IMG/VR virus record: IMGVR_UViG_3300046804_003463 | Span: 1 to 64,000 of that record | Direction: 5' to 3' (one strand) | Source: a virus | DNA: 64,000 nucleotides | Shown here: positions 268 to 14,370 of the stretch, in pieces | Layout of the letters: every line of letters starts with the position of its first letter | Position numbering within the stretch: the stretch's first letter is position 1 | Notes under the pieces: model-generated | The model's database searches: none | Seen by the model: only the letters and a program-made list of their open reading frames with translations | What the model was told of the DNA's origin: nothing | Program-made: the position numbers and the translations under genes

Positions 268-274
268 ACAAACT

Positions 275-352
275 TGGCGACATGTACGGGATTCGAACCC
301 GTGGTCTCCGCCGTGACAGGGCGGCGCATTAGGCCAACTATGCTAACATGCC
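275..352 (-). tRNA. tRNA-Asp (anticodon GTC)
   Basis: Acceptor stem GGCATGT/ACATGTC with one G-U pair, anticodon loop CTGTCAC, discriminator G, CCA encoded. Its first two bases are also the end of the long hairpin at 351-429. Confidence 0.94.
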
Positions 353-429: not shown

Positions 430-503
430 TAGGTGCGGTGGGATTCGAACCCACGACTCTCAGATTAAAAGTCTGATACTCTAACCAGCTGAGTTACACA
501 CCC
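427..503 (-). tRNA. tRNA-Lys (anticodon TTT)
   Basis: Acceptor stem GGGTGTG/CGCACCT with wobble pairs, anticodon loop CTTTTAA, discriminator A, CCA encoded at 427-429 inside the arm of the spacer hairpin. Confidence 0.94.
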
Positions 504-513
504 ATAATATAAT

Positions 514-588
514 TGGTACACCCAACCGGATTCGAACCGGTGTTACTGCCGTGAAAGGGCAATGTCCTGACCACTAGACGATGGGTGC
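514..588 (-). tRNA. tRNA-Glu (anticodon TTC)
   Basis: Acceptor stem GCACCCA/TGGGTGT, anticodon loop CTTTCAC, discriminator A, CCA encoded. It is the first tRNA downstream of the promoter at 631-659. Confidence 0.94.
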
Positions 589-630
589 ATCTCACAAATT
601 TTTTAAAGATCAATCAACTCAACAAAATCT

Positions 631-659
631 ATTATAGCGAAAATCCAAAATTCTGTCAA
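631..659 (-). promoter_or_regulatory. sigma-70-type promoter for the tRNA operon
   Basis: Minus strand reads TTGACA, 17-bp spacer ending TTCGC, then TATAAT. Both hexamers are perfect consensus. It lies 43 bp upstream of tRNA-Glu, in a non-coding stretch, and belongs to the early-promoter family described in the findings. Confidence 0.85.
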
Positions 660-695
660 CTACTTTTTTTACTGTTGTTTTTTTACAACACATTC

Positions 696-772
696 TGGTC
701 TGAGTGGAGAGGATCGAACTCCCGACCTCCTGCTCCCAAAGCAGGCATTCTACCAGGCTGAACTACACTCAG
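696..772 (-). tRNA. tRNA-Pro (anticodon TGG)
   Basis: Acceptor stem CTGAGTG/CACTCAG is perfect, the anticodon loop is TTTGGGA, discriminator A, CCA encoded. It lies between the terminator at 782-815 and the promoter at 631-659, so it is probably made by readthrough. Confidence 0.95.
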
Positions 773-781
773 ATATAAAAC

Positions 782-815
782 AAAAAACCCCGAAGCCTTT
801 TGGATTTCGGGGTTT
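782..815 (-). terminator. intrinsic terminator of the early gene block
   Basis: A 10-bp perfect stem (785-794 with 806-815, core ACCCCGAA/TTCGGGGT) is followed on the minus strand by a run of T at 782-787. It closes the early transcripts before the tRNA cluster. Confidence 0.9.
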
Positions 816-841
816 GTATACAGTTCGAACTAAACTACAAT

Positions 842-937
842 CTATACACAAACCTCCGATGCGGGCGCCCATGATCCATTATCGCTAAATGTGCGATACT
901 GTGGGCATTCCTTCGTAATGTGTATTAGTTTGTTCAT
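842..937 (-). CDS. possible 31-aa peptide
   Basis: A short open frame starts 5 bases after the stop of the upstream gene and ends just before the terminator. A weak GAG purine stretch precedes the ATG. It has two cysteines and no recognisable family; only position and packing support it. Confidence 0.35.
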   Translation of the reverse strand: MNKLIHITKECPQYRTFSDNGSWAPASEVCV

Positions 938-941
938 AACT

Positions 942-1340
942 CTATATATCCCTCTGAACGCCTCTAAAAGTCAATTCACTAATAAAAAGTTTTCGTATGC
1001 GTTCACTAATGTGAATTTGAGTTTCAAGTATAGCCTCAATGTGATCATTTGTCAAGTCTTTGAGTGGTACAAAAGTCAAAGGCTGACGACCACCTTTACC
1101 ACGGGTACCCCATTTGAATACTTCACGAATTAGGGCATACGGTGCATCATCATACACCGACAATTCCTCATACGGTGCATCATCATGTACATTTCGGCGC
1201 AGATAATCTAGACCACCATCGACCATGTATTCTTTGCCATTTGCATCAACATAGGTCACATAGTCGTGGCGATGCCTAGATTCAAGAATCGTACCGTCAG
1301 GTGTACGAATACGATTCGCTACGATTCTTGCTTCACTCAT
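942..1340 (-). CDS. conserved phage protein, 132 aa, unknown function
   Basis: The start is the ATG that overlaps the stop of the upstream gene (TGATG). The first half carries RTPDGTILESRHRHDYVTYV and a KEYMVDGGLDYLRRN block, which I recognise as a widespread hypothetical family of phage early regions. No catalytic motif is evident. It is the last substantial gene before the terminator. Confidence 0.85.
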   Translation of the reverse strand: MSEARIVANRIRTPDGTILESRHRHDYVTYVDANGKEYMVDGGLDYLRRNVHDDAPYEELSVYDDAPYALIREVFKWGTRGKGGRQPLTFVPLKDLTNDHIEAILETQIHISERIRKLFISELTFRGVQRDI

Positions 1341-1507
1341 CACTGTATACACCAACCTTCATCAATCAAGGCACGTGCGGCACGACCATACGAACCTTGC
1401 AAGTGCCACACCAGACCTGAATCAATCAACTCTTGAAAAAATTCAATTGTTTCATCAAAGTGCAACTCACCTGCTTCATAAGCAATCATTTTATCAATCT
1501 GATCCAT
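1340..1507 (-). CDS. conserved small phage protein, 55 aa
   Basis: The start is chosen at MDQIDKM because GGAGG lies 6 bases ahead; a longer frame would overlap the upstream gene. The sequence (IAYEAGELHFDETIEFFQELIDSG, here split: IAYEAGEL and FFQELIDSGLVWHLQGSYGR) matches a common acidic early phage family with unknown role. Confidence 0.85.
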   Translation of the reverse strand: MDQIDKMIAYEAGELHFDETIEFFQELIDSGLVWHLQGSYGRAARALIDEGWCIQ

Positions 1508-1508
1508 A

Positions 1509-1898
1509 TTACGCCTCCAAAGCATAGGGTTTGTTCCACTTACCGATATTTACATCAATGTACCAACCGACATTAAAGTAATCGGTTTGAATATCAGACT
1601 TATCCCAATTACCAGCATTCATTGCTGGAATCACTTCAGAGAGGAAGAAATACGCATCACCATTGAAATGACTTTTGTAGTGATAAGGATTCACCTGAAT
1701 ACCGAACTTCTCAGCATCGGCACGTGTTTCAGGGCTATCGCCATAATCACTGATAAAATCAATTTTACCAGACTTTACATTTAACACCAGTGTAGAATGA
1801 TTGCGAACCGCAAGGCTTGCTTTCACGCCGTACTTTTTGCAAATCGCTTTGATTTTAGGTGCCAACTTAGACTTCAATTCTTGAGATACATAAGCCAT
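1509..1898 (-). CDS. conserved phage protein, 129 aa
   Basis: Start MAYVSQELK follows a strong GGAGGTTTGTG leader; a longer frame adds seven residues but no ribosome site. The region KKYGVKASLAVRNHSTLVLN is typical of a hypothetical protein found in many tailed phages. It is the first gene after the promoter at 1932-1960. No enzymatic motif seen. Confidence 0.87.
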   Translation of the reverse strand: MAYVSQELKSKLAPKIKAICKKYGVKASLAVRNHSTLVLNVKSGKIDFISDYGDSPETRADAEKFGIQVNPYHYKSHFNGDAYFFLSEVIPAMNAGNWDKSDIQTDYFNVGWYIDVNIGKWNKPYALEA

Positions 1899-1931
1899 CA
1901 CAAACCTCCATGTAATCAATCAACATGTATA

Positions 1932-1960
1932 ATTATAGCGGTGGTACGGTACTTTGTCAA
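1932..1960 (-). promoter_or_regulatory. early sigma-70-type promoter P1
   Basis: TTGACA, 17-bp spacer ending ACCGC, TATAAT on the minus strand: a perfect consensus. It drives the genes from 1898 leftward. Confidence 0.88.
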
Positions 1961-2196
1961 CCATTTCTTTTTAGCAACTTTTCTATCTCAGTGTTGTCAA
2001 GTTGAAAATGTTGCACAATGTCGTCCCAAAAGTCTATTGCCAAATAATCTTCTGGTGTATTCTCACCCGTTTGATAGATTTGATATATTTCTGACAACAA
2101 TTGGAGTGCGTATCTTTCCTGGTGTGATTTGAAAACATCCACAAAAAATGAACCACCCGTTTGTTTAGCAATTTCAGTCAGCAGTTCTTGATTCAT
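1957..2196 (-). CDS. hypothetical protein, 79 aa
   Basis: AAGGAGCGTT precedes the ATG. The product is acidic and helical (ELLTEIAKQTGG, LLSEIYQIYQTGE). It overlaps the upstream phosphatase-like gene by 23 bases and its stop lies inside the P1 -35 box. Family not recognised. Confidence 0.75.
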   Translation of the reverse strand: MNQELLTEIAKQTGGSFFVDVFKSHQERYALQLLSEIYQIYQTGENTPEDYLAIDFWDDIVQHFQLDNTEIEKLLKRNG

Positions 2197-2545
2197 AACG
2201 CTCCTTGATTAACTCAATCAATTCTGGATTACGATACTCATAATTATCTGGAATCTGCAAATCAATGATAGGCTTGTCAAGCATCCACTCCATCATCTTG
2301 TTGCGAACCCATAATGCATGTTCAGTGTCAGCACATACGACCTCATCACACCACATCAGCAAATCTTCAGTAACAGGAATCAATGCGTAGCCCGCCGTGC
2401 CTGCCGACCGTGTATTGAAGTTATATGGTTCAGCCGATAACACATGCGCCATTGTAGGCGAACGGAGCATATTGGCAGAACAGACCGTCAATACTTTTTT
2501 ATAGTCGCCTTGAAATCTATTTGAATGTACACCATAACGTACCAT
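2174..2545 (-). CDS. low-molecular-weight protein tyrosine phosphatase-like protein
   Basis: The 123-aa frame starts at MVRYG behind GGAAGAGTA. It has the P-loop CSANMLRS at residues 22-29, that is the C-x5-R-S signature of the LMW-PTP fold, then RSAGTAG, a typical strand-turn of this family, and an IPDNYEY segment that could supply the general-acid Asp. The usual length is about 150 aa, so this is a short version as seen in other phages. The substrate is unknown: it could dephosphorylate host proteins or be a non-enzymatic relative. It sits among early genes and may serve host takeover. Confidence 0.72.
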   Translation of the reverse strand: MVRYGVHSNRFQGDYKKVLTVCSANMLRSPTMAHVLSAEPYNFNTRSAGTAGYALIPVTEDLLMWCDEVVCADTEHALWVRNKMMEWMLDKPIIDLQIPDNYEYRNPELIELIKERYESRTAD

Positions 2546-2555
2546 TACTCTTCCT

Positions 2556-2711
2556 TCAAAAAATAGATGACAGTGCAGCAGCACCGTTCATTGCTGAAAT
2601 AATCAGATAGACAAATGCCCAACCAGGTCGCCCTTCATCAGCGGCGACCGTAGACATATTCCAAAAAAGAAATACAAACAAAAATTGTAAAGCAAAAATA
2701 ATGATGCCCAT
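2556..2711 (-). CDS. small membrane protein, 51 aa
   Basis: MGIIIFALQFLFVFLFW forms one membrane helix and FVYLIISAMNGAAALSSIF a second. A GGAATGAC leader precedes the chosen ATG. Unknown role. Confidence 0.7.
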   Translation of the reverse strand: MGIIIFALQFLFVFLFWNMSTVAADEGRPGWAFVYLIISAMNGAAALSSIF

Positions 2712-2712
2712 G

Positions 2713-2958
2713 TCATTCCAATAATGTACGACTTTCACGATCCCAAAAAAACTGCACTGCCCGTTTAGCGGATTCTAAATTGATATACTGGCCAAGATGC
2801 TTTTCATCCTGAACCGTGAAAGTGTACTCACCTGTATACACCAGACCAATCCAAACTTCCTGGAGTGCAATCTTGCTTACTGTACCGACAATCTTACCAG
2901 TCAAGGTGTCATAATAATAGTATTTCTCAGAATACCGTTCCCAATCATATTCTTTCAT
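2713..2958 (-). CDS. hypothetical protein, 81 aa
   Basis: Soluble, aromatic-rich product (MKEYDWERYSEKYYYYDTL) with a GEYTFTVQDEKH beta-like stretch. It overlaps the upstream gene by 4 bases (ATGA). Family not recognised. Confidence 0.75.
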   Translation of the reverse strand: MKEYDWERYSEKYYYYDTLTGKIVGTVSKIALQEVWIGLVYTGEYTFTVQDEKHLGQYINLESAKRAVQFFWDRESRTLLE

Positions 2959-3119
2959 TGGCGAAACACCAGACTTTGCGTGATGGTATCAGTCACATTA
3001 CAAATGAAATAGGCCACATCTTCTCCATAGAGATTTTCCTCTATATTAACAAACTTCACTTCACTTGTCAAGTGTTCATTCCCACACTCACGACATTTCA
3101 CCACAAACGATTCATTCAT
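2955..3119 (-). CDS. small zinc-finger-like protein, 54 aa
   Basis: The start MNESF is coupled to the upstream stop (TAATGA). A CRECGNEH knuckle near the N-terminus and one further Cys (FICNV) suggest a partial metal site. Function unknown. Confidence 0.7.
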   Translation of the reverse strand: MNESFVVKCRECGNEHLTSEVKFVNIEENLYGEDVAYFICNVTDTITQSLVFRQ

Positions 3120-3436
3120 TAAGCAATACCTGTCCATTGTAGGCGATTCAGATAAGTGCCGGCATCATACACATTACCACGCACAAAGTTTTTCGCTGGT
3201 GCTTTCCATGAAGCCGCTTTCCAGATGTTACCCGTTTCTTTCTCTACGAACGAGTGTACCGAGCGGGAGCCACCAGCCGAGATTTTCACGACCTTTACGT
3301 ACTTAGACCCCGGCTCAAACTCAACACCGAACTGTCCGATGTCCGAGATACCGGCATCACCACACCATTTCACATAGTTCGCCACGATATTATCTTTGTA
3401 ACCAATCAGCGCAACAGCCAGATCATCTTTCACCAT
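3119..3436 (-). CDS. conserved phage protein, 105 aa
   Basis: The ATG at 3436 follows GGAGAAGAAC; a second ATG four codons earlier overlaps the previous stop (TAATG) and could also be used. The region KYVKVVKISAGGSRSVHSFV and KAASWKAPAKNFVRGNVYD is a common hypothetical in tailed phages, with no known function. Confidence 0.83.
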   Translation of the reverse strand: MVKDDLAVALIGYKDNIVANYVKWCGDAGISDIGQFGVEFEPGSKYVKVVKISAGGSRSVHSFVEKETGNIWKAASWKAPAKNFVRGNVYDAGTYLNRLQWTGIA

Positions 3437-3447
3437 GTTCTTCTCCA

Positions 3448-3645
3448 TTACAAAACAGTTTCACAGTATTTGTATTTCAACAACTTAGCCGTATCTTTAT
3501 CATACAACCAAGTCAGCGCACACCATACAGAATCCGAAACACTATAATACTCACGATACCGAGTATAAACTTCGGCAAACCAATTTTCATCATTCCGTGC
3601 GGCACAATAGTCTTGTGCCCGTTTCAAATACTCCATTTTGTTCAT
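3448..3645 (-). CDS. hypothetical protein, 65 aa
   Basis: Starts at an ATG overlapping the stop of the upstream gene (TGATG). Aromatic-rich helical protein with two cysteines. Family not recognised. Confidence 0.72.
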   Translation of the reverse strand: MNKMEYLKRAQDYCAARNDENWFAEVYTRYREYYSVSDSVWCALTWLYDKDTAKLLKYKYCETVL

Positions 3646-3965
3646 CACGCAAACTCCATTTCAAGTTCTTTCGGTGAATAAACAATGCAGCCATCCCACT
3701 CCAGCTGGCTACGCTCATACTCTGTCAGATAGTCATCCTCAACCAACTGTAGATCAACCACAGTCTCACGGAAGTAATCATTTGATACCTCAACTTGAGC
3801 CTTCACCTCTGCCAGAATCCGAGACATTTGCGATTTATCAACATTTCGCACCACGTACTCATCACCACCTTTAGGTTTGAAATATGCATCCTCACCGGTA
3901 CCAATCGTACCGTCCTCACGCCATGCATAATTCTCATAGACCTGTGTAGTAAATATTGCTTTCAT
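3645..3965 (-). CDS. hypothetical protein, 106 aa
   Basis: First gene after promoter P2, with GAGGTTGTC before the ATG. The N-terminus MKAIFTTQVYENYAW and a KPKGGDEYVVRNV segment look like a conserved phage accessory protein. No motif that gives a function. Confidence 0.8.
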   Translation of the reverse strand: MKAIFTTQVYENYAWREDGTIGTGEDAYFKPKGGDEYVVRNVDKSQMSRILAEVKAQVEVSNDYFRETVVDLQLVEDDYLTEYERSQLEWDGCIVYSPKELEMEFA

Positions 3966-3995
3966 GACAACCTCATCTCAATCTCAACAGAGTCC

Positions 3996-4024
3996 ATTAT
4001 AGCCGAGGCACCCCACTTTGTCAA
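3996..4024 (-). promoter_or_regulatory. early sigma-70-type promoter P2
   Basis: TTGACA, 17-bp spacer ending CTCGGC, TATAAT: perfect consensus, about 30 bp upstream of the ATG at 3965. The -35 box overlaps the stop codon of the small membrane gene at 4021. Confidence 0.87.
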
Positions 4025-4143
4025 CCATTCCTGCGATAATATTCCAGCCATCCATCGTTAGCAGAAAGATAACGGAGTAGCACAGTAATTGCTAGATTGA
4101 CAACCACAAAGATTAACAATATTGTAAGAATAGTGAATGTCAT
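4021..4143 (-). CDS. single-helix membrane peptide, 40 aa
   Basis: The ATG overlaps the upstream stop (ATGA). Residues 3-24 (FTILTILLIFVVVNLAITVLL) form one helix, followed by a short cytoplasmic tail with RR. It is one of many such peptides in the early region. Confidence 0.68.
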   Translation of the reverse strand: MTFTILTILLIFVVVNLAITVLLRYLSANDGWLEYYRRNG

Positions 4144-4319
4144 TCTTCCTCATCATCATAGTCTTCGCCATCATAAAAGAATTCATTCAACCGTGCCATA
4201 TCCGCTACATCATCTTCGGACATATACTTCAGACAAGCCATGATCACGGTGTCACGATCCAGCAGTCCATCTTCAACCAACTCCAGGACACGATTCGTTG
4301 CTTGACGGGTTTGATACAT
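4140..4319 (-). CDS. conserved small acidic phage protein, 59 aa
   Basis: GGAGGTATAGG precedes the ATG. MYQTRQATNRVLELVEDGLL and CLKYMSEDDVADMARLNEFF match a family frequently seen in phage early regions. The C-terminus is very acidic (DGEDYDDEEE). Unknown role. Confidence 0.8.
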   Translation of the reverse strand: MYQTRQATNRVLELVEDGLLDRDTVIMACLKYMSEDDVADMARLNEFFYDGEDYDDEEE

Positions 4320-4490
4320 CCTATACCTCCAAAAAAAATTTTTGTGCGATTCAGTGGCGGATTTGCGATTTCACTGGAGTTCGGCGTCAATAAGGTTTGC
4401 TTTGAAATAGCATGTTCCTTTGAGGAGGCTCATTGTCTAGACCGCTTATCGTTTTCACCATACACCACACCACACACTGCCCCCACTGCC

Positions 4491-4637
4491 CTATGCACCC
4501 TCAGGGCGCCCGTACATCTCCAGTATATTGTTCACTGTTAGCACTGCCACGCCCAAGTAATTAGCAATGAAGGGCACACTGCACCCAGCATCACTCATCT
4601 CCAGGATTTCAATTACCAAGTTCTTGTAATAGCCCAT
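4491..4637 (-). CDS. small helix-turn-helix-like protein, 48 aa
   Basis: Starts inside the 3' end of the previous gene (29-base overlap) behind GAGGAAATAA. The pattern LVIEILEMSDAG-CSVPFIANYLGVAVLTVNNIL reads like a minimal HTH with a hydrophobic recognition pattern. It could regulate DNA binding but no close family is recognised. Confidence 0.5.
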   Translation of the reverse strand: MGYYKNLVIEILEMSDAGCSVPFIANYLGVAVLTVNNILEMYGRPEGA

Positions 4638-4818
4638 TTATTTCCTCATCCTCATCATAGGGATTAATCTTCGGCGGCTTACGGGTGTTAGGATTTTCTC
4701 CGTACACCTTTACATCACCGTTACGCCCACCTGCCACCACAGTACGGGGTGCCATGTAGACTTCAAACTCCTGCACGGCCTCTGCTACTTCAGCCTCACT
4801 AAACAATGCTTTTTTCAT
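4609..4818 (-). CDS. hypothetical protein, 69 aa, paralogue of the next gene upstream
   Basis: The first 15 residues (MKKALFSEAEVAEAV) match those of the 4818-4994 product (MIKALFTDADVAEAT). The remainder diverges into an acidic, proline-rich tail. The start is coupled to the preceding stop (TAATG). Function unknown. Confidence 0.75.
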   Translation of the reverse strand: MKKALFSEAEVAEAVQEFEVYMAPRTVVAGGRNGDVKVYGENPNTRKPPKINPYDEDEEINGLLQELGN

Positions 4819-4994
4819 TATGCAAAGGCCTTCGTTGGGTAGCCAGCAGCAATACCACCAGAGCCCTTCACAAAGCCCTTAGAGGCCTTAGCACGGCATA
4901 CTGGCTTTTTGGCCTTACGGGGCTTACACACAGTGGCACCCATACCCTTGGTGGCCTCTGCTACATCAGCATCAGTGAATAGTGCTTTGATCAT
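4818..4994 (-). CDS. small basic protein, 58 aa
   Basis: GGAGTATGAT precedes the ATG. After an N-terminus shared with its neighbour, the chain becomes Lys/Arg-rich with two cysteines (VCKPRKAKKPVCRAKASKG), suggesting nucleic-acid binding. No named family. Confidence 0.68.
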   Translation of the reverse strand: MIKALFTDADVAEATKGMGATVCKPRKAKKPVCRAKASKGFVKGSGGIAAGYPTKAFA

Positions 4995-5004
4995 ATCATA
5001 CTCC

Positions 5005-5139
5005 TTACAGTTTCCAGGTTTTGATGGCCTCTGCTACATCACCCACGGCAATGTTCAGCAGAGCAGCAATACGCCACACAGGATAGCCAAGGTACTTCAA
5101 GGTGGCTATCTCATTAATCGTTTCACGGCGGATAATCAT
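5005..5139 (-). CDS. small helix-turn-helix-like protein, 44 aa
   Basis: Overlaps the upstream stop by 4 bases. The sequence INEIATLKYLGYPVWRIAAL followed by LNIAVGDVAEAI resembles a short sigma-like or Hin-type HTH (hydrophobic first helix, LGYPVWRIAALL turn). Could bind DNA; unproven. Confidence 0.55.
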   Translation of the reverse strand: MIIRRETINEIATLKYLGYPVWRIAALLNIAVGDVAEAIKTWKL

Positions 5140-5300
5140 AATGTCATTCCCTTTGCAAGATAAGCAATATAACCAGGGTTCTTGTTCAACATCACCACAG
5201 GCTCAATACCCAACACCACACCGGTCTTCACAAAGGCCTTTTCAGCATAGGCCACAGCGGCTCTCAAGGTCTTGAATTTTCTGCCATCACAGGTATACAT
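5136..5300 (-). CDS. hypothetical protein, 54 aa
   Basis: MYTCDGRKFKTLRAAVAYAE follows AAGGAGATTGTG and lies just downstream of promoter P3. The fold looks like a small helix-strand unit; family not recognised. Confidence 0.75.
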   Translation of the reverse strand: MYTCDGRKFKTLRAAVAYAEKAFVKTGVVLGIEPVVMLNKNPGYIAYLAKGMTL

Positions 5301-5330
5301 CACAATCTCCTTTTCAATCACCACACAGGC

Positions 5331-5359
5331 ATTATAGCAAGGTGCTGGGATTCTGTCAA
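5331..5359 (-). promoter_or_regulatory. early sigma-70-type promoter P3
   Basis: TTGACA, 17-bp spacer ending CTTGC, TATAAT, perfect consensus, followed by an AAGGAGATTGTGATG leader. Confidence 0.87.
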
Positions 5360-5374
5360 CCAGTTATTCGGCAA

Positions 5375-5494
5375 TTATGCTTTTCTATCCCTCAGTGCAT
5401 CATACAGAATATAGGCCATTGCAAAAGGTGTAATTGTCAGAAAAACAACCACCGCACCATCGGCCACGTACAAAAGCCAGTTCAGAAAATCCAT
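5375..5494 (-). CDS. single-helix membrane peptide, 39 aa
   Basis: Starts at the ATG overlapping the previous stop (TGATG). Residues 4-31 are hydrophobic (LNWLLYVADGAVVVFLTITP), with a basic tail LRDRKA inside the cell. Unknown role. Confidence 0.65.
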   Translation of the reverse strand: MDFLNWLLYVADGAVVVFLTITPFAMAYILYDALRDRKA

Positions 5495-5673
5495 CATGCC
5501 GCATCCTTCATTAGTCGGTAACCTTCGGCCACATTGAACAAATTAGCCCGCTGCCAGTCCCACAAATCAGTTACTTTATTGAAAACTGGACCGAACGGAT
5601 ACGCTTTCTTATCATTAATCAAATAGACCATCGTTTGCCAGCCACCAGGTACGCTTATACAAGTAATTTCCAT
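5494..5673 (-). CDS. hypothetical protein, 59 aa
   Basis: GGAGAGTAAA precedes MEITCISVPGGWQTMVYL. Contains an FGPVFNKVTDLWDWQRANLF segment, likely a small alpha/beta protein. Family not recognised. Confidence 0.75.
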   Translation of the reverse strand: MEITCISVPGGWQTMVYLINDKKAYPFGPVFNKVTDLWDWQRANLFNVAEGYRLMKDAA

Positions 5674-5674
5674 T

Positions 5675-5836
5675 TTACTCTCCAAACACCGCACCAATGG
5701 GACGGCTAGTAATTGCTAATTGATAAACACCAGGATTTGCTTTGATTATTCGGAGCATTGCTTTTTTGCTACCCTTTGCAGTTATCAAACCCGTTGCTTT
5801 ACAGTAAACAGAGTAGTAGGTATAGGCCGTTATCAT
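5675..5836 (-). CDS. hypothetical protein, 53 aa
   Basis: Begins MITAYTYYSVYCKATGLITA right after the stop of the 28-aa membrane peptide. Basic middle (KGSKKAMLRIIKANP). Family not recognised. Confidence 0.7.
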   Translation of the reverse strand: MITAYTYYSVYCKATGLITAKGSKKAMLRIIKANPGVYQLAITSRPIGAVFGE

Positions 5837-5840
5837 TTTA

Positions 5841-5927
5841 TCAACCCAGAGTAGTAACAGCACCAGGTGCAGCAGCCAGAACACCCCACACACCCACCAG
5901 ACCCGCTATTATCAGAATCGCAATCAT
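5841..5927 (-). CDS. 28-aa membrane peptide
   Basis: GGAGATTGAG precedes an ATG; the product MIAILIIAGLVGVWGVLAAA is almost entirely one hydrophobic helix. It is the first gene after promoter P4. The promoter, leader and ribosome site support a real micro-protein. Confidence 0.6.
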   Translation of the reverse strand: MIAILIIAGLVGVWGVLAAAPGAVTTLG

Positions 5928-5959
5928 CTCAATCTCCACAATCATCTCATCACGGTTAG

Positions 5960-5988
5960 ATTATGGCGGAAGTGCGGTAGATTGTCAA
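5960..5988 (-). promoter_or_regulatory. early sigma-70-type promoter P4
   Basis: TTGACA, 17-bp spacer ending TTCCGC, CATAAT. The roughly 200 bases upstream (5989-6186) hold no convincing gene, only GC-rich repeats (GGCGCCAGGGT/GGTGCCAGGGT) and short CACACTTTTTC-type repeats. Confidence 0.83.
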
Positions 5989-6186
5989 CCATTTTGTGGT
6001 TTTTTGTGGCTAGGGCGGGCGCCAGGGTGGGTGCCAGGGTACGGTGCGGTGTTGTCATTGTGCTACTAGGTGTAGTGTCGTGCAGTGCGAATATCGCAAC
6101 ATTTAGTATGCCGCTGCCGCACACGATTCCAGCACGCCATAAATAGTGCGTTTGCATCCCACTATTCTACACTTTTTCACACCTTT

Positions 6187-6441
6187 TCACACCAACATAT
6201 ACCGTTCCTGCTCTGGTAATGTCAATTGAGTTTGATTATACAATTCTATTTGCTTTTCTCTCAGCCAGTCATCATATACACCATCGTCAAATTCTTCTGG
6301 TGTCATACAATTATCAATTTCCAAATAGTAGATAAAACGGGTAAATGAGCCGGTCATTCCTGTGGGAATATCGTTCGGCTTGGCTACTTTTCGCAGGTCT
6401 TCAATTCTCTTCTCCAACTCAATTATAACTTCCGGTCTCAT
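6187..6441 (-). CDS. hypothetical protein, 84 aa
   Basis: GGAGACTAT precedes the ATG. N-terminal helix MRPEVIIELEKRIEDLRK, then an acidic segment TPEEFDDGVYDDWLREKQIE. Overlaps the upstream gene by 4 bases. Family not recognised. Confidence 0.75.
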   Translation of the reverse strand: MRPEVIIELEKRIEDLRKVAKPNDIPTGMTGSFTRFIYYLEIDNCMTPEEFDDGVYDDWLREKQIELYNQTQLTLPEQERYMLV

Positions 6442-6641
6442 ATAGTCTCCGTTATATCTTTATTCAGCAACTTAGCCCATCGCTTATGGAATTGTGCTAT
6501 ATCCGTCATCACCTTATGGGGGTGCTGTCCGTATATAAACGCTATCATGGCTAGTTCAGCGGCACCGTCACCATCTACTGTTATCATTTTAGCAGCCATC
6601 TCTATGGCGTCCTGATAGGTTTTGGTGCGGAATTTAGGCAT
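6438..6641 (-). CDS. hypothetical protein, 67 aa
   Basis: The start MPKFRTKTYQDAIEMAAK overlaps the previous stop (TGATG). All-helical prediction from heptad-like leucines and alanines; no known family. Confidence 0.72.
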   Translation of the reverse strand: MPKFRTKTYQDAIEMAAKMITVDGDGAAELAMIAFIYGQHPHKVMTDIAQFHKRWAKLLNKDITETI

Positions 6642-6799
6642 CAATACACCTCACGCTCATATATGTCAAACTCATCTATAGTACCGTCCTCTACTAGTTG
6701 CTCACCGTAGGCTAAGGCATTGTTATAGTCTCCAAATACACGTAGCACGGTATCACCCTCATATGGTATCACTTCAACGACAATAAAAACTTTGTTCAT
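6641..6799 (-). CDS. hypothetical protein, 52 aa
   Basis: MNKVFIVVEVIPYEGDTVLRVFGDYNNALAYGEQL (shown in part: MNKVFIVVEVIPYEG) follows GAGGAGTTATCAAA and promoter P5. The pattern of a strand, loop and YGE helix recalls small phage proteins; function unknown. Confidence 0.72.
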   Translation of the reverse strand: MNKVFIVVEVIPYEGDTVLRVFGDYNNALAYGEQLVEDGTIDEFDIYEREVY

Positions 6800-6836
6800 T
6801 TTGATAACTCCTCGTTTTCTCTCTCAGTATGGTGTA

Positions 6837-6865
6837 ATTATAGCCGGAGTGCAGGAGATTGTCAA
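6837..6865 (-). promoter_or_regulatory. early sigma-70-type promoter P5
   Basis: TTGACA, 17-bp spacer ending TCCGGC, TATAAT: perfect consensus in a short gap before the 52-aa gene. Confidence 0.87.
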
Positions 6866-6868
6866 CGG

Positions 6869-6955
6869 TTATTTTGTTGTCAATTTGAGTACAACATAGC
6901 GAATTATCAAACCGATAACAACACCGAAACAAAGGTAAAAAAGATCCATTATCAT
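6869..6955 (-). CDS. 28-aa membrane peptide
   Basis: The ATG overlaps the stop of the MazG-like gene. One helix (LFYLCFGVVIGLIIRYVV) with a short basic tail. A second ATG two codons in is also possible. Confidence 0.55.
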   Translation of the reverse strand: MIMDLFYLCFGVVIGLIIRYVVLKLTTK

Positions 6956-7200
6956 AATGGTATGTTACTCCAGGTCTTGAGCTTTTGGCGCTTATCTTTG
7001 GAGTGGAGCTGGATTCTTGTCTCATCTACCAGCTGGTGTTCAATGCACAGGTCAATCATACACTGTAGGTCACCTAGTTCTTGTTCTAGTCTTTTGATGT
7101 TATCTGAGTGGTGTCCAAAGCGGTGTATCTTTGAGGCTATCTGAATTACTTCAGCGGCTTCTTCCTGTAGTATCGTCAGAATCTCGGTCGTGGTGTTCAT
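6952..7200 (-). CDS. MazG-like nucleotide pyrophosphohydrolase-type protein, 82 aa
   Basis: The order LQEEAAEVIQIASKI-HRFG, then LEQELGDLQCMIDLC, is the EExxE plus ELGD helix pair of the all-alpha NTP pyrophosphatase superfamily, where these acids bind Mg. At 82 aa it is a minimal one-domain form. Likely role: hydrolysis of non-canonical or alarmone nucleotides during infection; the substrate is not visible from sequence. Confidence 0.72.
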   Translation of the reverse strand: MNTTTEILTILQEEAAEVIQIASKIHRFGHHSDNIKRLEQELGDLQCMIDLCIEHQLVDETRIQLHSKDKRQKLKTWSNIPL

Positions 7201-7370
7201 GGGCTATACTTTGCATCGGCAATGATCAATGCACCAAGGATAATCCATAGAATGCCCCATACAGGAAAGCCAAGGGCAAGGTCAGCAAGTCCGTTTAGTA
7301 CATTAATGCTACCGATTGTATAGCCGATAGGTCTACGGTACTTCATTATTTTTTCATACAATGTTTTCAT
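7197..7370 (-). CDS. membrane protein, 57 aa
   Basis: The stop overlaps the next ATG. A basic N-terminus (MKYRRP) is followed by two hydrophobic stretches, about residues 16-36 and 37-51 (FPVWGILWIILGALIIA). Unknown role. Confidence 0.65.
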   Translation of the reverse strand: MKTLYEKIMKYRRPIGYTIGSINVLNGLADLALGFPVWGILWIILGALIIADAKYSP

Positions 7371-7371
7371 A

Positions 7372-7728
7372 TTATGCTCCGTTGGGTGATCCGAACATCA
7401 TGCTTAGTACACTCGGTTCGGGTGTATTGTTTTGTCCATGCTTTGCTACCATGATGCCAAGGTCGACGACTCGTTGAAACTTGGCTTTGTCTTTACATGC
7501 GACCTGTAGTTGAAATAGTATATCGGCTATATCTGGTCGGTCTTTCCATGTACCAATACAGATACCGTTGGGATTGACTTGACCTTTGAATACATCACAG
7601 TGACCAACCCAACAGAAATTGGTGTCACGGTATCGGTCACTTTCTACACTTTTCAGTACAAAATCGTTAAACTCTTTTTTTGTACCGGCAATGACATATA
7701 ATACTGTCCACACGTAACGATACCTCAT
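7372..7728 (-). CDS. hypothetical protein, 118 aa, paralogue of 10758-10997
   Basis: LYVIAGTKKEFNDFV, a central CWVGHCDVFKG and ICIGTWKDRPDIADI align with LYVVAGNQEEYDDFV, VVSADVLRG and FYIGSYQERNDWPEI of the second copy 3 kb away. It is linked to its neighbours by ATGA overlaps. No function known. Confidence 0.78.
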   Translation of the reverse strand: MRYRYVWTVLYVIAGTKKEFNDFVLKSVESDRYRDTNFCWVGHCDVFKGQVNPNGICIGTWKDRPDIADILFQLQVACKDKAKFQRVVDLGIMVAKHGQNNTPEPSVLSMMFGSPNGA

Positions 7729-7907
7729 TTCGTTAGATCGTTATACATCCACTCATATTCACGGAGGCGATCAATTTCATTCGCTGCCTCTTCCAGCAGG
7801 TCGGCAATACGGTCGGGTTTGTTTTCTTGTACAGACTTGCGGTCGGGTATCTGGCGGCGTATCTCAGCCCGTTTTCGCAGTCGGTACACCAGGTCTTGGT
7901 CGTTCAT
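7725..7907 (-). CDS. hypothetical protein, 60 aa
   Basis: Charged helical protein (MNDQDLVYRLRKRAEIRRQ, then LLEEAANEIDRLREYEWMY), coiled-coil-like. The C-terminal ADLLEEAANEIDRLR pattern is common in phage early proteins. Unknown role. Confidence 0.75.
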   Translation of the reverse strand: MNDQDLVYRLRKRAEIRRQIPDRKSVQENKPDRIADLLEEAANEIDRLREYEWMYNDLTK

Positions 7908-8125
7908 TGGTTAACTCCGAAATGTTTTAGAATCTTATCAGCACAATAATGGCCATCCATCCCTTTGTCACCTAGTTCTTCACATATACCTAAGCATTCA
8001 TTGACAATCAACTCGGCGAACTTTTCTGTCCATAGTCGTTGCTTTTCTTCATATGATTCTTTGTAGTGTTCATTGCCCACATAAAAATCACAATGTTCAG
8101 CCAGTTCTCGGATTCGGTCATTCAT
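7904..8125 (-). CDS. conserved phage protein, 73 aa
   Basis: MNDRIRELAEHC followed by EKFAELIVNECLGICEELGD is a frequent architecture in tailed-phage early regions (a helical protein with FAELIV-ECL). Function unknown. Confidence 0.8.
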   Translation of the reverse strand: MNDRIRELAEHCDFYVGNEHYKESYEEKQRLWTEKFAELIVNECLGICEELGDKGMDGHYCADKILKHFGVNQ

Positions 8126-8134
8126 TTTATATAC

Positions 8135-8305
8135 TCAGTTCTTATCTACTGGCACACCAATGATTGTACACTGTACATTGCGTGGCAGTGTTTTTTCACA
8201 CTCGGTTAGTGCTTTTCTTTCAGCAGATTTTCCAGTGTCATAGCCCAGAAGACCGCCTATAAACAAAGCAAAAATTACAACAAAAAGTCCAAATACATTT
8301 TCCAT
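8135..8305 (-). CDS. membrane-anchored small protein, 56 aa
   Basis: AAGGAGTGA precedes two adjacent ATGs. Residues 4-24 form one helix, followed by a tail with two cysteines (LTECEKTLPRNVQCTI), arranged like a periplasmic disulfide micro-domain. Unknown role. Confidence 0.65.
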   Translation of the reverse strand: MENVFGLFVVIFALFIGGLLGYDTGKSAERKALTECEKTLPRNVQCTIIGVPVDKN

Positions 8306-8574
8306 CATTCACTCCTTGGTAAATTATATTGTCGGGTATACTGGCTCGTCACTGAGCCGTGGATTGGTGGTGCTTCATATTGTACATTAGATTCTACGGG
8401 CAAATCAAATGCCGCCCGTATGATTTTTTTGTCGGCTTGTGAACCGCATAGTTGGGCGCAGTGTTCAGCCACTCGTTTGACCAGTTCTTCAATTAGCACA
8501 ATTTGCTTGGTGTTGGTCAGGTATGCCATATCAATGCCGACCTCATCACAGTATTTTTGAGTATTCTTATTCAT
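8305..8574 (-). CDS. hypothetical protein, 89 aa
   Basis: Start MNKNTQKYCDEVG is coupled to the stop of the 27-aa peptide (ATGA); a longer frame exists but would overlap it completely. Middle helix IVLIEELVKRVAEHCAQLC. Family not recognised. Confidence 0.7.
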   Translation of the reverse strand: MNKNTQKYCDEVGIDMAYLTNTKQIVLIEELVKRVAEHCAQLCGSQADKKIIRAAFDLPVESNVQYEAPPIHGSVTSQYTRQYNLPRSE

Positions 8575-8654
8575 AGCGGTGTCTTGTGAAATAGGTACAG
8601 ACATATGCAAATCGCCAGCATAAAGCCGGCGTACCAGAAGTGGTCAAATTTCAT
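8571..8654 (-). CDS. 27-aa membrane peptide
   Basis: MKFDHFWYAGFMLAICICLY is one hydrophobic helix; the stop overlaps the next ATG. No clear ribosome site. Confidence 0.45.
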   Translation of the reverse strand: MKFDHFWYAGFMLAICICLYLFHKTPL

Positions 8655-8676
8655 TTTTTGAGCATTTTTGACTGGT

Positions 8677-8871
8677 TTAATTCAATTTCAATGCTCTGGC
8701 AGCAGATTTATTTGCTTCAGAGAATGCATAGTCATTGGACAGGCTATTGTAGCCGTCATAGAATTTCCACTCACCGTTGACCAGTCGTTCTACCTTTACA
8801 TCATACAGTACATCAAACGGACTGCCATCATGCACAATCCGCACGGTACCAAAATCTTTCGCAATATACAT
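8677..8871 (-). CDS. hypothetical protein, 64 aa
   Basis: Beta-rich small protein (GTVRIVHDGSPFDVLYDVKV), ending in an ANKSAARALKLN helix. Overlaps the upstream gene by one base. Not recognised. Confidence 0.7.
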   Translation of the reverse strand: MYIAKDFGTVRIVHDGSPFDVLYDVKVERLVNGEWKFYDGYNSLSNDYAFSEANKSAARALKLN

Positions 8872-9077
8872 TATAAAACCCCCGCTATCTCTTTTGCATC
8901 AAGAATAATTGACTCACGTACCGCACCAAATACTTTGATTGGTCGGCTAAGTGTAACATGATGGGACATACCACCACCGTATTTTACACGACTCAGGTAC
9001 ACAGTGCCCGATACGGGATACTCACCCATATACATACCGACGATACGCTTACCGTCAAGAAAAGATTCACCGATCAT
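8871..9077 (-). CDS. hypothetical protein, 68 aa
   Basis: Beta-rich (SGTVYLSRVKYGGGMSHHVT); ATGA overlap with its upstream gene. Family not recognised. Confidence 0.7.
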   Translation of the reverse strand: MIGESFLDGKRIVGMYMGEYPVSGTVYLSRVKYGGGMSHHVTLSRPIKVFGAVRESIILDAKEIAGVL

Positions 9078-9253
9078 ACAGCCTCCACAGGAGCAAACAT
9101 TTTAGCACCCTCACGCATAAAGTTTTTCAACTCACGGCGCACCTCAGAAGGAAACTCGTCCTCATATTCTAAAATAAAAGCAATTGCCTCAAGGGTTTTG
9201 TACCCACGTGCAATCCGAATAGATTCAACTTCAGCCATTAGATTCTTAAACAT
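9074..9253 (-). CDS. hypothetical protein, 59 aa
   Basis: First gene after promoter P6. GGAGATGTCAA sets the start at MFKNLMAEVESIRIARGYK. Mostly helical, acidic. Not recognised. Confidence 0.74.
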   Translation of the reverse strand: MFKNLMAEVESIRIARGYKTLEAIAFILEYEDEFPSEVRRELKNFMREGAKMFAPVEAV

Positions 9254-9285
9254 TTGACATCTCCAAATCAACTCATCACAGTGTT

Positions 9286-9314
9286 ATTATGGCGGAAAGT
9301 CAGGGGTTTGTCAA
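9286..9314 (-). promoter_or_regulatory. early sigma-70-type promoter P6
   Basis: TTGACA, 17-bp spacer ending TTTCCGC, CATAAT, with a leader GTGATGAGTTGATTTGGAG very like that after P4. Confidence 0.84.
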
Positions 9315-9553
9315 GGGCTATTATTTGTTTCTAGATTGATAATTGATTTCTTTTTGATACAGACAAAGGAACCTTGCTTTTCTTGAAACAAGATACCGTT
9401 GCGATTTTGACAAGCCTCTTCGGCAGCCTGGAATTGGCTACGGACTACATTGTAACCCGTAATTGCTACCAGTACACAAAAGGCATAAAAGGAATACAGT
9501 ACGACATATTCCCAATTAATTCTCTGTAATAGGAGGTTGATTCTCGTTTTCAT
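9311..9553 (-). CDS. membrane protein with periplasmic tail, 80 aa
   Basis: One helix at about residues 15-36 (YVVLYSFYAFCVLVAITGY), then an alpha-helical tail with two cysteines (EEACQNRNG, SFVCIKKK). It overlaps the upstream membrane gene by 38 bases. Together the pair may form a membrane complex. Confidence 0.65.
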   Translation of the reverse strand: MKTRINLLLQRINWEYVVLYSFYAFCVLVAITGYNVVRSQFQAAEEACQNRNGILFQEKQGSFVCIKKKSIINLETNNSP

Positions 9554-9785
9554 TTCCACTCACGCAAACATCACCAATAAAAATATAAACATTTGAATCT
9601 ATAGACTTTTGTGCATACAATTGATTATTATAGCACAGATATGGATCTTTGTATCGTTGCGCTGCATAGTATACCACATAACCTATGCCAGCTAAAATCA
9701 TCAGTATTGGAATGTACTTGATATACTTGACCAGTTCAGGCATCATGCCTAACAACTTGGGCAGTATTTCCAACAACTGTTTCAC
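9516..9785 (-). CDS. membrane protein, 89 aa
   Basis: An amphipathic N-terminus (LLEILPKLLGMMPELVKYI) is followed by a helix at about 24-41 and a tail with a Cys pair (YLCYNNQ, GDVCVSG). Unknown function. Confidence 0.67.
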   Translation of the reverse strand: MKQLLEILPKLLGMMPELVKYIKYIPILMILAGIGYVVYYAAQRYKDPYLCYNNQLYAQKSIDSNVYIFIGDVCVSGNENENQPPITEN

Positions 9786-10000
9786 TTCACTTTACCTTTG
9801 TTCTTTACGGCTTCTGATAGCATACCTCTGATTACCAGCAATACACGATTTTTTTCTCTTTCGGTCAAATGTCTAACCAACATAAGTTTATCGTCATAAG
9901 ATTTTGCATTGTCTAGGAATTCTTGTGGTACTGCTAGTTTTTTCTTTTTGGGTTTGAACTTTTTGAGTTTTTCTTTTGGGTCTTCTGTATCGTTAGACAT
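9782..10000 (-). CDS. basic hypothetical protein, 72 aa
   Basis: Lys-rich N-terminus (KEKLKKFKPKKKKLAVPQEF) then LTEREKNRVLLVIRGMLSEA. ATGA overlap with the next gene. Not recognised. Confidence 0.7.
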   Translation of the reverse strand: MSNDTEDPKEKLKKFKPKKKKLAVPQEFLDNAKSYDDKLMLVRHLTEREKNRVLLVIRGMLSEAVKNKGKVK

Positions 10001-10039
10001 GATGGCCTTGATTGGATTATCACCGAATCATGCCACTAT

Positions 10040-10279
10040 TTATTCTATACAGTCTTTCATCTCACGCCAATAGTTTCGCTCTGCCCAATGCACAATACAC
10101 CAATCTTCAATGCATTGCTCTGAAGTAAGTTTTTCATCAGGTTGCCCACTGTCAACCATTTTTAAAAACCAGTGGAACCAGTATTGGTCTAGAATCTCTT
10201 TTTCTGATAATGTTTCCCAATGATTATATTCATGACCTGATTCTGTTACATCGGGATAAACGATGGTGTAGTATTTCAT
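10040..10279 (-). CDS. conserved phage protein, 79 aa
   Basis: Starts MKYYTIVYPDVTESG at an ATG overlapping the previous stop. The WFHWFLKMV and CIEDWCIVHWAE motifs match a widespread phage early hypothetical rich in Trp and Cys. No function known. Confidence 0.83.
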   Translation of the reverse strand: MKYYTIVYPDVTESGHEYNHWETLSEKEILDQYWFHWFLKMVDSGQPDEKLTSEQCIEDWCIVHWAERNYWREMKDCIE

Positions 10280-10509
10280 CAAATGCTTTCGGGTACAGTA
10301 ACTACAAAACCTGGCTTTGTTACCCACAGTTTACCATATCTACCACATAATCCATTACGATCAGGACCACCTAGTCGCATACTACGACAGGTTTCCCTTG
10401 AATGCTCACCGTAGATAGGGTCATCATATTTCAAGGCTTCTGGATGTAAGCAAAAAGCCTCTTTGTCAGAGGCTTCTTCAAAAAATTTACAATCTTTACA
10501 TAGTTTCAT
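10279..10509 (-). CDS. cysteine-rich conserved phage protein, 76 aa
   Basis: The pattern CKDCKFF, FCLHPEA, TCRSMR and GLCGRYGKLW gives six cysteines that probably bind zinc. This is a familiar phage hypothetical family. Operon-linked by one-base overlaps. Confidence 0.83.
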   Translation of the reverse strand: MKLCKDCKFFEEASDKEAFCLHPEALKYDDPIYGEHSRETCRSMRLGGPDRNGLCGRYGKLWVTKPGFVVTVPESI

Positions 10510-10697
10510 TACATTTCGCCATAAGCAATCGCATCAAGGTCATACGAATGAGCCGCATACATCATCGCCTCATGTTCAGCAAATAATGCGTCCAACATAG
10601 CCTCACATTCATCATCAACATAATCAGTCAAAGTAGCCTCAGCAATTTCCATTGCTAATTCGTTAATCATATCTTCATCAACAGCAGGACCAGCCAT
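10509..10697 (-). CDS. acidic small protein, 62 aa
   Basis: GGAGGTTGTG sets the start at MAGPAVDEDM just after promoter P7. Very acidic helical product (VDDECEAMLDALFAEHEAMM); could mimic DNA charge, but that is speculation. Confidence 0.73.
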   Translation of the reverse strand: MAGPAVDEDMINELAMEIAEATLTDYVDDECEAMLDALFAEHEAMMYAAHSYDLDAIAYGEM

Positions 10698-10727
10698 CAC
10701 AACCTCCATATCAACTCAAGAAATAAT

Positions 10728-10756
10728 AGTATATCAGCAATTACAAACTTTGTCAA
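10728..10756 (-). promoter_or_regulatory. early sigma-70-type promoter P7
   Basis: TTGACA, 17-bp spacer, TATACT, followed by the GGAGGTTGTGATG leader. Confidence 0.82.
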
Positions 10757-10757
10757 G

Positions 10758-10997
10758 TCAGCCACCTTTGGCTTTTATCGTTTTGATAACGGTATCAATC
10801 TCAGGCCAGTCGTTGCGTTCTTGATAACTACCAATGTAGAACCCACGAATAGCATCCAACCCACGCAAAACATCGGCGCTGACAACATACCGAAAATCAT
10901 AATCATGACCTCTCATTCGTTTACGAATTACAAAATCGTCGTATTCTTCCTGATTGCCCGCCACGACATATAGCGGACCAAGTTTAGTCTTCTGCAT
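10758..10997 (-). CDS. hypothetical protein, 79 aa, paralogue of 7372-7728
   Basis: Starts MQKTKLGPLYVVAGNQEEY inside the end of the upstream gene. Shares the LYV-AG-E--DFV and GFYIGSYQERNDWP blocks with its larger paralogue. Function unknown. Confidence 0.77.
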   Translation of the reverse strand: MQKTKLGPLYVVAGNQEEYDDFVIRKRMRGHDYDFRYVVSADVLRGLDAIRGFYIGSYQERNDWPEIDTVIKTIKAKGG

Positions 10998-11211
10998 CCA
11001 TTTTCTCAAAGATTAACATCTTAGCGATATTGATATATTGACGGGCACGATTTTTGTCGTTAAACTCAATCAATTCTTGTGCATCAGACAAATATGATGC
11101 AATCACCATACCAATGCCAGACATTTTAAATGTAAGCGAATCTTCAATCATTTCAAGAATTTCTGCCTTAGGTGAACCATAGGCTTGCATTTCCCATTCA
11201 AGTTTATTCAT
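10984..11211 (-). CDS. hypothetical protein, 75 aa
   Basis: Start MNKLEWEMQAYGSPKAEIL overlaps the previous stop. Helical, with a hydrophobic centre FKMSGIGMVIASYLSDAQ. Not recognised. Confidence 0.72.
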   Translation of the reverse strand: MNKLEWEMQAYGSPKAEILEMIEDSLTFKMSGIGMVIASYLSDAQELIEFNDKNRARQYINIAKMLIFEKMDAED

Positions 11212-11405
11212 CACACACCCTCCAGTGCTTCGTAGACATATTCTTTCACTGCGGTATCAGTCGCTTCACCGAAACCATCTACAGTGGCAATATCAAACAG
11301 AATATCTAAAACTTCATCAAATGACCAACCAAGTTCTTTTGCAGCAATTACAATCCCGTCAATCACACGATTGCCGTTATCTGTAAACATACCATAATGT
11401 TTCAT
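11211..11405 (-). CDS. hypothetical protein, 64 aa
   Basis: GGAGATTGTG sets the start at MKHYGMFTDNGNRVIDGIV. Helical acidic protein. Not recognised. Confidence 0.73.
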   Translation of the reverse strand: MKHYGMFTDNGNRVIDGIVIAAKELGWSFDEVLDILFDIATVDGFGEATDTAVKEYVYEALEGV

Positions 11406-11416
11406 CACAATCTCCA

Positions 11417-11701
11417 TCATTTAAAAACAATCAACGCCAACAGTATGCTGTTAAAGAAGAAACCAACAGCGTTACTAATTATGTATAACTTATCGTTCCT
11501 ACCCAATGCACGAACCAGAAACAGAAACAAACCGCCCCAGACCATCAACACCATGCTCAATGGTGGCAACTTATCGCTGTAACCGAGAATCACACCCAAA
11601 CTAGTTGGCAGAGTAGCAGCATGAATCATAACCATACCGACCCAGCCACAAGCCTCACTCAAATCAAACTTAACTGCTTTCTTAACCATTTCGTAACTCA
11701 C
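11417..11701 (-). CDS. membrane protein, 94 aa
   Basis: Three hydrophobic segments: about 20-38, 45-62 and 74-93. The first codon is GTG; an ATG four codons later is an alternative start. First gene after promoter P8. Unknown role. Confidence 0.7.
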   Translation of the reverse strand: MSYEMVKKAVKFDLSEACGWVGMVMIHAATLPTSLGVILGYSDKLPPLSMVLMVWGGLFLFLVRALGRNDKLYIISNAVGFFFNSILLALIVFK

Positions 11702-11718
11702 TTTCTCATCACATGGTT

Positions 11719-11747
11719 AGTATGGCGGAAAGCGGTCAGATTGTCAA
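11719..11747 (-). promoter_or_regulatory. early sigma-70-type promoter P8
   Basis: TTGACA, 17-bp spacer ending TTTCCGC, CATACT. The spacer and leader (GTGATGAG) resemble P4 and P6. Confidence 0.8.
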
Positions 11748-11823
11748 GCGTTTTATCTGCTAGGAGCCTGTCTTTTGCGCCAAAGTGATTTCTTTTTGAT
11801 AACTTTTGTGTCAACCGGTGTTG

Positions 11824-12174: not shown

Positions 12175-12193
12175 AATATCTCCATAGTAAATT

Positions 12194-13502: not shown

Positions 13503-14370
13503 AGTCATCTCCTATCACTCCATTGTACACGACTCGTTTCACAGTGTCAACTCTGTGAGCAGAATTTCGTGCGCCCATCACAACAATTACCTCATGATAA
13601 TCTTTTTCACCATTAACTTTGTGTACTAATATTGCCACGCAAAAGCCGGCAGGATTTGTGAAGCCTGTTTTACTTATTTGAACACCCTCTACTTGTGACA
13701 ATATAGCGTTGTTTGTATTATGTAGAACTAAAACTCTATTCTTTCTTTTACCTGGCGTTTCAATCGTCGTAATCTTTTTGGTAGAAATGTTTCGTATTTC
13801 TGGATAATTTGCCGCTTCAACAACCATCTGTGTTACATCACTGGCTGTGCTTACATTATATTTACTCAAGCCGGAAGGATCATCAAAACTTGTGTTGTAC
13901 ATGTCTAGCATCAATGCTTTTGAATTCATGTGATCCATAAAACGTCTACGACCACCGGGATAATCTGCCGCTAATGTTTCTGCTGCTGCATTGTCACTCT
14001 TGATTAGTAGCATATGAAACAATTCACCACGGGTATACTCAAGGCGTGGCATTTTACTGCCTGCATTTTTACTGAGTACAAGTTTACGATTCATATCACG
14101 ATCATAGTCTAATGCAACCATAGCAGTCATGAGTTTGGTCATACTTGCCAATGCACGGACTTCATCAATGTTTTGTGCCCTTGTAATTGTGCCCTCAGTA
14201 ATATTTGTGACCATTACCGATACAGTGCTATAAGTTTGCACTGTCTGCTGCTTTGCTTTCTTTTTCTTTTTAACTTTGTGTTTAGACTTGGCATCTGCGG
14301 TTGTTATCGTCAGAAAAAATAAAACAAAAAATGTTACAAGCCACTGTGTGAGTGTAAGTTTCTTATTCAT
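13480..14370 (-). CDS. penicillin-binding-type D-Ala-D-Ala carboxypeptidase/endopeptidase
   Basis: The 296-aa chain has an N-terminal signal peptide ending about TTADA, a Lys-rich linker, then the three active-site motifs of serine PBPs in order: SMTK at 76-79 (nucleophile Ser76), SDN at 125-127 and KTG at 234-236. The YTRGELFHMLLIKSDNAAAE and DPSGLS segments match peptidase family S11 (DacA/PbpG). It should act in the periplasm on peptidoglycan stem peptides or cross-links. It overlaps a 30-aa membrane peptide by 4 bases. A phage PBP is unusual; it might edit the wall before lysis or block superinfection. Confidence 0.88.
   Translation of the reverse strand: MNKKLTLTQWLVTFFVLFFLTITTADAKSKHKVKKKKKAKQQTVQTYSTVSVMVTNITEGTITRAQNIDEVRALASMTKLMTAMVALDYDRDMNRKLVLSKNAGSKMPRLEYTRGELFHMLLIKSDNAAAETLAADYPGGRRRFMDHMNSKALMLDMYNTSFDDPSGLSKYNVSTASDVTQMVVEAANYPEIRNISTKKITTIETPGKRKNRVLVLHNTNNAILSQVEGVQISKTGFTNPAGFCVAILVHKVNGEKDYHEVIVVMGARNSAHRVDTVKRVVYNGVIGDDYDTTSRV
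13522..13550 (-). promoter_or_regulatory. internal sigma-70-type promoter
   Basis: TTGACA, 17 bp, TACAAT, inside the 3' end of the PBP gene and about 20 bp upstream of the 72-aa gene. Confidence 0.68.

Follow-up and report, generated by a model that had tools for sequence, protein, structure and literature searches.

T4-like phages are already known to start infection from strong early promoters, with which they seize the RNA polymerase of the host. The early promoters of T4 are described as out-competing those of the host (PMC2988021). In T4-like phages these promoters carry G at -33, T or C at -12, G or C at -36 and an A-rich stretch from -40 to -44; they are placed before novel ORFs and tRNA genes, and other T4-like phages share these departures from T4 itself (PMC1524935). 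A G at -14 forms part of the TGn extended -10 element, which spans positions -15 to -13 (PMC2988021). A further described system is that of the PeSL (promoter early stem-loop) cassettes (Arbiol 2010 and Comeau 2014, as cited in PMC4503421).

We analysed bases 1-64000 (hereafter the window) of the 77,032-bp IMG/VR record IMGVR_UViG_3300046804_003463 (also coded G000). With a probability of about 0.92, nine elements on its minus strand are early sigma70 promoters ("uber-promoters") of an uncultured T4-like myophage with a probable freshwater betaproteobacterial host. In this reading they belong to the class described above and carry the T4-type early promoter into a lineage that is uncultured and whose host is probably betaproteobacterial. 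Like the phages of the RB49, RB43 and Aeh1 types (PMC1524935; T4 review PMC2988021), the window phage has many near-consensus sigma70 promoters, associated with small novel ORFs and tRNA genes. It also shares with them the bases named above at -33, -12 and -36, the A-rich stretch from -44 to -40 and the presence of additional conserved positions beyond the hexamers. Unlike them, it always uses a spacer of exactly 17 bp, its G at -14 mostly follows C at -15 and so does not form TGn, a TACCG box is present in part of the clade, the leader core is specific to the lineage, and the probable host belongs to another group.

The phage and its probable host

The DNA polymerase of the record is T4-like over its full length and reaches 52-53% to T4-like marine cyanophages, its best matches; the primase and helicase also belong to T4-type families. 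Judged by these genes, the record represents part of the genome of a T4-like myophage that is uncultured. A close relative, G001 (IMGVR_UViG_3300032116_000035, 133 kb), has a polymerase 92% identical to it. A near-identity search against phage records gave a tRNA-Gln as the sole match. Further, the T4-type late promoter TATAAATA was found once in the whole record, compared with approximately 6 matches expected from base composition. It would therefore seem to be avoided, or late promoters, if any, have another form.

The record encodes a PstS-like protein, a phosphate-selective porin, ribonucleotide reductase and an S11 peptidase. The PstS-like protein was 76% identical to a protein from a freshwater Noviherbaspirillum-like genome. 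Because its best matches came from Oxalobacteraceae and other Burkholderiales, the host is likely a freshwater betaproteobacterium of Burkholderiales/Oxalobacteraceae, a placement based on this one metabolic gene. We took PstS as the host marker since a pattern scan of bacterial genomes gave no relative of the porin (PF07396; 19709-21115, minus strand), which adjoins the PstS-like gene and had no match in phage records. Beyond the window the record carries an AAA ATPase assigned to porphyrin biosynthesis together with a protein of a peptidase family, which we take to be CobS/CobT-like, and a DruA-domain protein (PF14236, Druantia defence; record 68798-70129, minus strand, L208:8799-10130). Two products encoded on the minus strand of the window were also recorded: a 496-aa protein with weak matches to a PHROG 'toxin' family (33811-35301) and an 841-aa protein in which cytidylyltransferase and zeta-toxin/AAA kinase-like domains are fused (38622-41147).

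Structure and conservation of the elements

The first-pass annotation had listed nine minus-strand elements with TTGACA, 17 bp and a -10 hexamer of four related forms. All nine coordinates were correct, each being the low end of a -35/-10 element, and TTGACA, the 17-bp spacing and YATAMT were exact in every case (Table 1). The -10 hexamer was TATAAT in five elements, CATAAT in two, and TATACT and CATACT in one each, so that 10-12 of the 12 bases of the sigma70 consensus were matched per element. We counted 10 matches to TTGACA-N17-YATAMT on the minus strand of positions 1-12000, compared with a mean of 0.006 and a maximum of 1 in 1000 dinucleotide shuffles. Over the whole window, the minus strand lacked the pattern at every other spacing from 12 to 23; on the plus strand, spacing 17 gave no match and spacing 13 gave one. 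Past the end of the window, the record has four more matches, between 65 and 69 kb. The series was confined to one strand in relatives as well (19 forward and 0 reverse in G001; 13 and 0 in G005).

Table 1. Promoter-like elements of the window
Element	Position	Strand	Context
Early promoter (candidate), TTGACA-17-CATACT	11719..11747	minus	start codon 11689
Early promoter (candidate), TTGACA-17-TATACT	10728..10756	minus	start codon 10697
Early promoter (candidate), TTGACA-17-CATAAT	9286..9314	minus	start codon 9253
Early promoter (candidate), TTGACA-17-TATAAT	6837..6865	minus	start codon 6799
Early promoter (candidate), TTGACA-17-CATAAT, TACCG box, GTGATGAG leader	5960..5988	minus	start codon ~5927
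Early promoter (candidate), TTGACA-17-TATAAT, TGC extended -10	5331..5359	minus	start codon 5300
Early promoter (candidate), TTGACA-17-TATAAT	3996..4024	minus	start codon 3965
Early promoter (candidate), TTGACA-17-TATAAT, TACCG box	1932..1960	minus	start codon 1898
Early promoter (candidate), TTGACA-17-TATAAT	631..659	minus	before tRNA-Glu to tRNA-Tyr array (588-19)
Tenth pattern match	1027..1055	minus	inside ORF 942-1340; without leader; codons kept in G001
TTGACA-17-TACAAT	13522..13550	minus	3' end of S11 peptidase gene, 14 nt before next start region

The elements precede novel ORFs and tRNA genes in the correct orientation. In eight of the nine the start codon lies 29-37 nt beyond the -10 hexamer, and the ninth (631) leads into the tRNA-Glu of the array. 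At 9286, 3996 and 1932 the upstream ORF terminates on the TGA within TTGACA. The spacer had been said to end usually in CGC or CGGC. We observed G at -14 in 9/9 and C at -13 in 8/9, so the ending is better written NGC, with CGC or GGC as its usual form; TGn proper was present in two elements only (10728 and 5331). Across 68 non-redundant elements of the clade there was an A-rich stretch from -44 to -40 and C or G at -36. The A-rich, UP-like region was significant over this clade set only and not on the nine alone. The same 68 elements had a pyrimidine at -1 in 66 cases and a purine at +1 in 49.

Two leader sequences had been described as shared by the elements, and both held in part. The first, GTGATGAG, was exact behind three promoters (11719, 9286 and 5960), while the rest carried TGTTGAG, TCTTGAG, TGTTGAT, TGGTGAT or TACTGAG. 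The second, GGAGxTTGTGATG, is a Shine-Dalgarno sequence with its start codon; it was exact at 10728 and 5331 and one base longer at 1932, and 631 had no such start. Since the leader core is present also after the tRNA promoter (631), it is not a ribosome signal alone, which weakens the view of the leader as purely a ribosome-binding signal. A ribozyme or a known RNA family was considered too, and an Rfam search of positions 1-15000 gave tRNAs only. The leader motif TGWTGAG was found in more than 119 stretches of IMG/VR; this is a raw count, and its spacing peaks come partly from a few repeated lineages. Directly behind the 5960 promoter lies an ORF for a hydrophobic peptide of approximately 28 aa (start MIAILIIAGLVG; 5841-5927, minus strand), and promoters like 5960 precede a similar small ORF or peptide start in G001, L219 and L228.

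Many consensus promoters with 17-bp spacing per contig and a leader common within the phage were likewise present in the IMG/VR phages L092, L146, L168, L401 and L402, which differ from the window phage in their leader and spacer sequences. Environmental phages with many TTGACA-17-TATAAT promoters and a leader of their own, e.g. ACACACTTACACACACTAAGGAGC, include L177, L120, L132 and L199 besides L092, L146 and L168.

We then compared orthologous regions, aligned from the gene behind each promoter so that the motif itself was not required. The relatives were found via a neighbouring gene, and the values refer to this sample rather than to a random one. Pooled identity to the window phage was 89% for the -35 hexamer and 79% for the -10 hexamer, with lower values of 59% for the spacer and 64% for the upstream sequence; the leader, at 74%, equalled nearby coding sequence. 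The hexamers and leader are thus kept across relatives, and the spacer drifts. At least 14 of 15 distinct relatives had the 11719 promoter together with the gene behind it, and at 9286 TTGACA and NATAAT were kept in 8/8 relatives with the same gene pair. A 631-type promoter precedes a tRNA array in G001 too, and several promoter positions are old and common to the window phage and its relatives. The 10728 promoter was conserved in the near clade and absent from more distant relatives, in which the two genes overlap or leave almost no gap. The promoter was therefore gained or lost in one piece, along with the intergenic space.

Alternative readings of the repeated units

There is next to no likelihood that the nine are chance or coding matches to the consensus. 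Such a reading stands for two intragenic matches (1027-1055 and 13522-13550), which lie in genes and follow the codons that relatives keep. The former is probably coding and was not counted as a promoter; given its place within an ORF and its lack of a leader, the first-pass annotation was probably right to omit it. The latter, likewise absent from the first-pass list and lost in L252, is ambiguous and may be coding. For the nine, the reading is refuted by the excess over shuffled sequence, the fixed spacing, the strand bias, the placement before start codons and the conservation. Another reading keeps the elements as promoters and differs in their origin and spread: they would be mobile, PeSL-like cassettes, promoter-plus-leader units that are duplicated and shuffled with genes by recombination. 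The nine do have traits in common with PeSL cassettes as these are outlined in PMC4503421, namely strong sigma70 early promoters, repeated units within a hypervariable stretch of small genes, and isolated cases of promoter-bounded gene gain or loss. Two loci look like such cases: at 3996 the single promoter of the window phage corresponds in G001 to two TTGACAAAG promoters with an additional gene between them, and in L219 a gene is inserted just upstream of a 9286-type promoter. Moreover, spacer and leader are shared beyond shuffle expectation among those promoters of a genome whose flanks are unrelated. Spacer similarity of flank-independent promoters was 0.44 within a genome and 0.36 between genomes (shuffled, 0.27), and L252 contains approximately ten near-identical promoter-plus-leader units close to TTGACACGTTTACCGTTTATTGATATAATCTGTTCATTGGTTAATTAATAGGGG. 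This sharing, together with the L252 units, fits duplication or homogenisation. Much of the within-genome excess comes from L252, however; it is small in the window phage, whose promoters resemble one another little in the leader (0.32). Nor are the genes that follow the promoters paralogous; the entire region gave one weak pair. Breakpoints of gene order were not enriched at promoters overall (p = 0.06 by junction type), so that promoter-linked gene shuffling found no overall support, and when G001 and L228 were viewed pairwise, junctions at promoters were better conserved than the rest. Further, no hairpin with a T-tract was present at any of the nine (5988 had z -2.4 and no T-tract), whereas a PeSL cassette has an adjoining stem-loop terminator; among the promoters of this record, such a hairpin is present at 65053 and 66326 alone, outside the window. 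Without that stem-loop, the nine do not qualify as PeSL cassettes in the sense of the literature. We consider the mobile-cassette reading rather unlikely. An alignment had been proposed as a check for whole-cassette duplication including flanking codons; in the window phage, similarity stopped at the promoter plus leader and was confined to approximately -44 to +24. The first-pass idea of duplicated cassettes spreading along the early region is thus partly supported, by the excess sharing and the L252 units, and not in respect of active spreading in the window phage, given the unrelated genes, the old positions and the breakpoints. The promoter family may have arisen by duplication long ago.

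A separate possibility concerns the spacer. A TACCG/ACCG box at approximately -25 to -21 was present in 21 of 58 flank-independent clade promoters, compared with 0.8 in shuffled sequence, and in three of the nine window promoters (11719, 5960 and 1932). In IMG/VR, CTTGACA-N4-TACCG-N8-TATAMT occurred in 99 stretches compared with 53 for a composition-matched control, approximately two-fold, in counts that include close relatives and are not independent; it recurred within contigs such as L401, L402 and L406. The box could stem from contact of RNA polymerase with the spacer, from a phage regulator or from common descent. If box and leader formed the binding site of a phage regulator, the early promoters could be switched as a set. 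The excess of the box, its repetition within contigs and the leader core behind the tRNA promoter agree with this, but two-thirds of the window promoters have no box, and polymerase contact or common descent explains it equally well; we regard such a regulator site as very improbable. A broader proposal, also improbable in our judgement, is that the TACCG box and the leader core at the start site make up an undescribed accessory element of early promoters, read by a phage factor or a specific polymerase contact and evolving in concert genome-wide. Box and leader offer a lead on what, besides the hexamers, lets a phage promoter win polymerase or be shut off later.

Probable capture of host polymerase, and composite terminator-promoters

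The reading of the nine as early sigma70 promoters that hijack host RNA polymerase, proposed in the first-pass annotation, is well supported by their position, orientation, consensus quality, conservation and start context. It is backed further by the match to the published class of T4-like early promoters and by the rarity of such sequences in candidate hosts: perfect TTGACA-17-TATAAT occurred 0-2 times per genome in eight candidate-host relatives (3-6.3 Mb), compared with 5 times in 12 kb of the phage. This rarity supports, without proving, out-competition of host promoters. We infer promoter activity, host identity and selection for polymerase capture as the force that keeps the consensus, and, by analogy with T4-like phages, early timing.

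Each element would act as a near-ideal sigma70 promoter (TTGACA, 17 bp, -14 G, YATAMT), followed by a leader of approximately 25-30 nt with a Shine-Dalgarno sequence or, in one case, by a tRNA array. At entry, the promoters would recruit unmodified host RNA polymerase against weaker host promoters, and the recruited polymerase would transcribe small, fast-evolving early genes. Because there is no terminator between them, the promoters would act in series. The elements would also form a collection of natural sigma70 promoters of very high strength.

Outside the window, the minus strand of the record carries two composite terminator-promoters, at approximately 65025-65062 and at 66297-66335 (L208 ~5026-5063 and 6298-6336). 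Each has a perfect 10-bp hairpin with TTGACA in its loop (GAGAGAGTGTTGACACACTCTCTCTTTTTTTATATAAT; TCCACCACTTGACAAAGTGGTGGAATTTCTTTATAAT). They fit the PeSL description, as published and cited above, better than the nine do, and such an arrangement would be a compact way to end one transcript and start the next. G001 and G005 retain the second composite, with an altered base pair.
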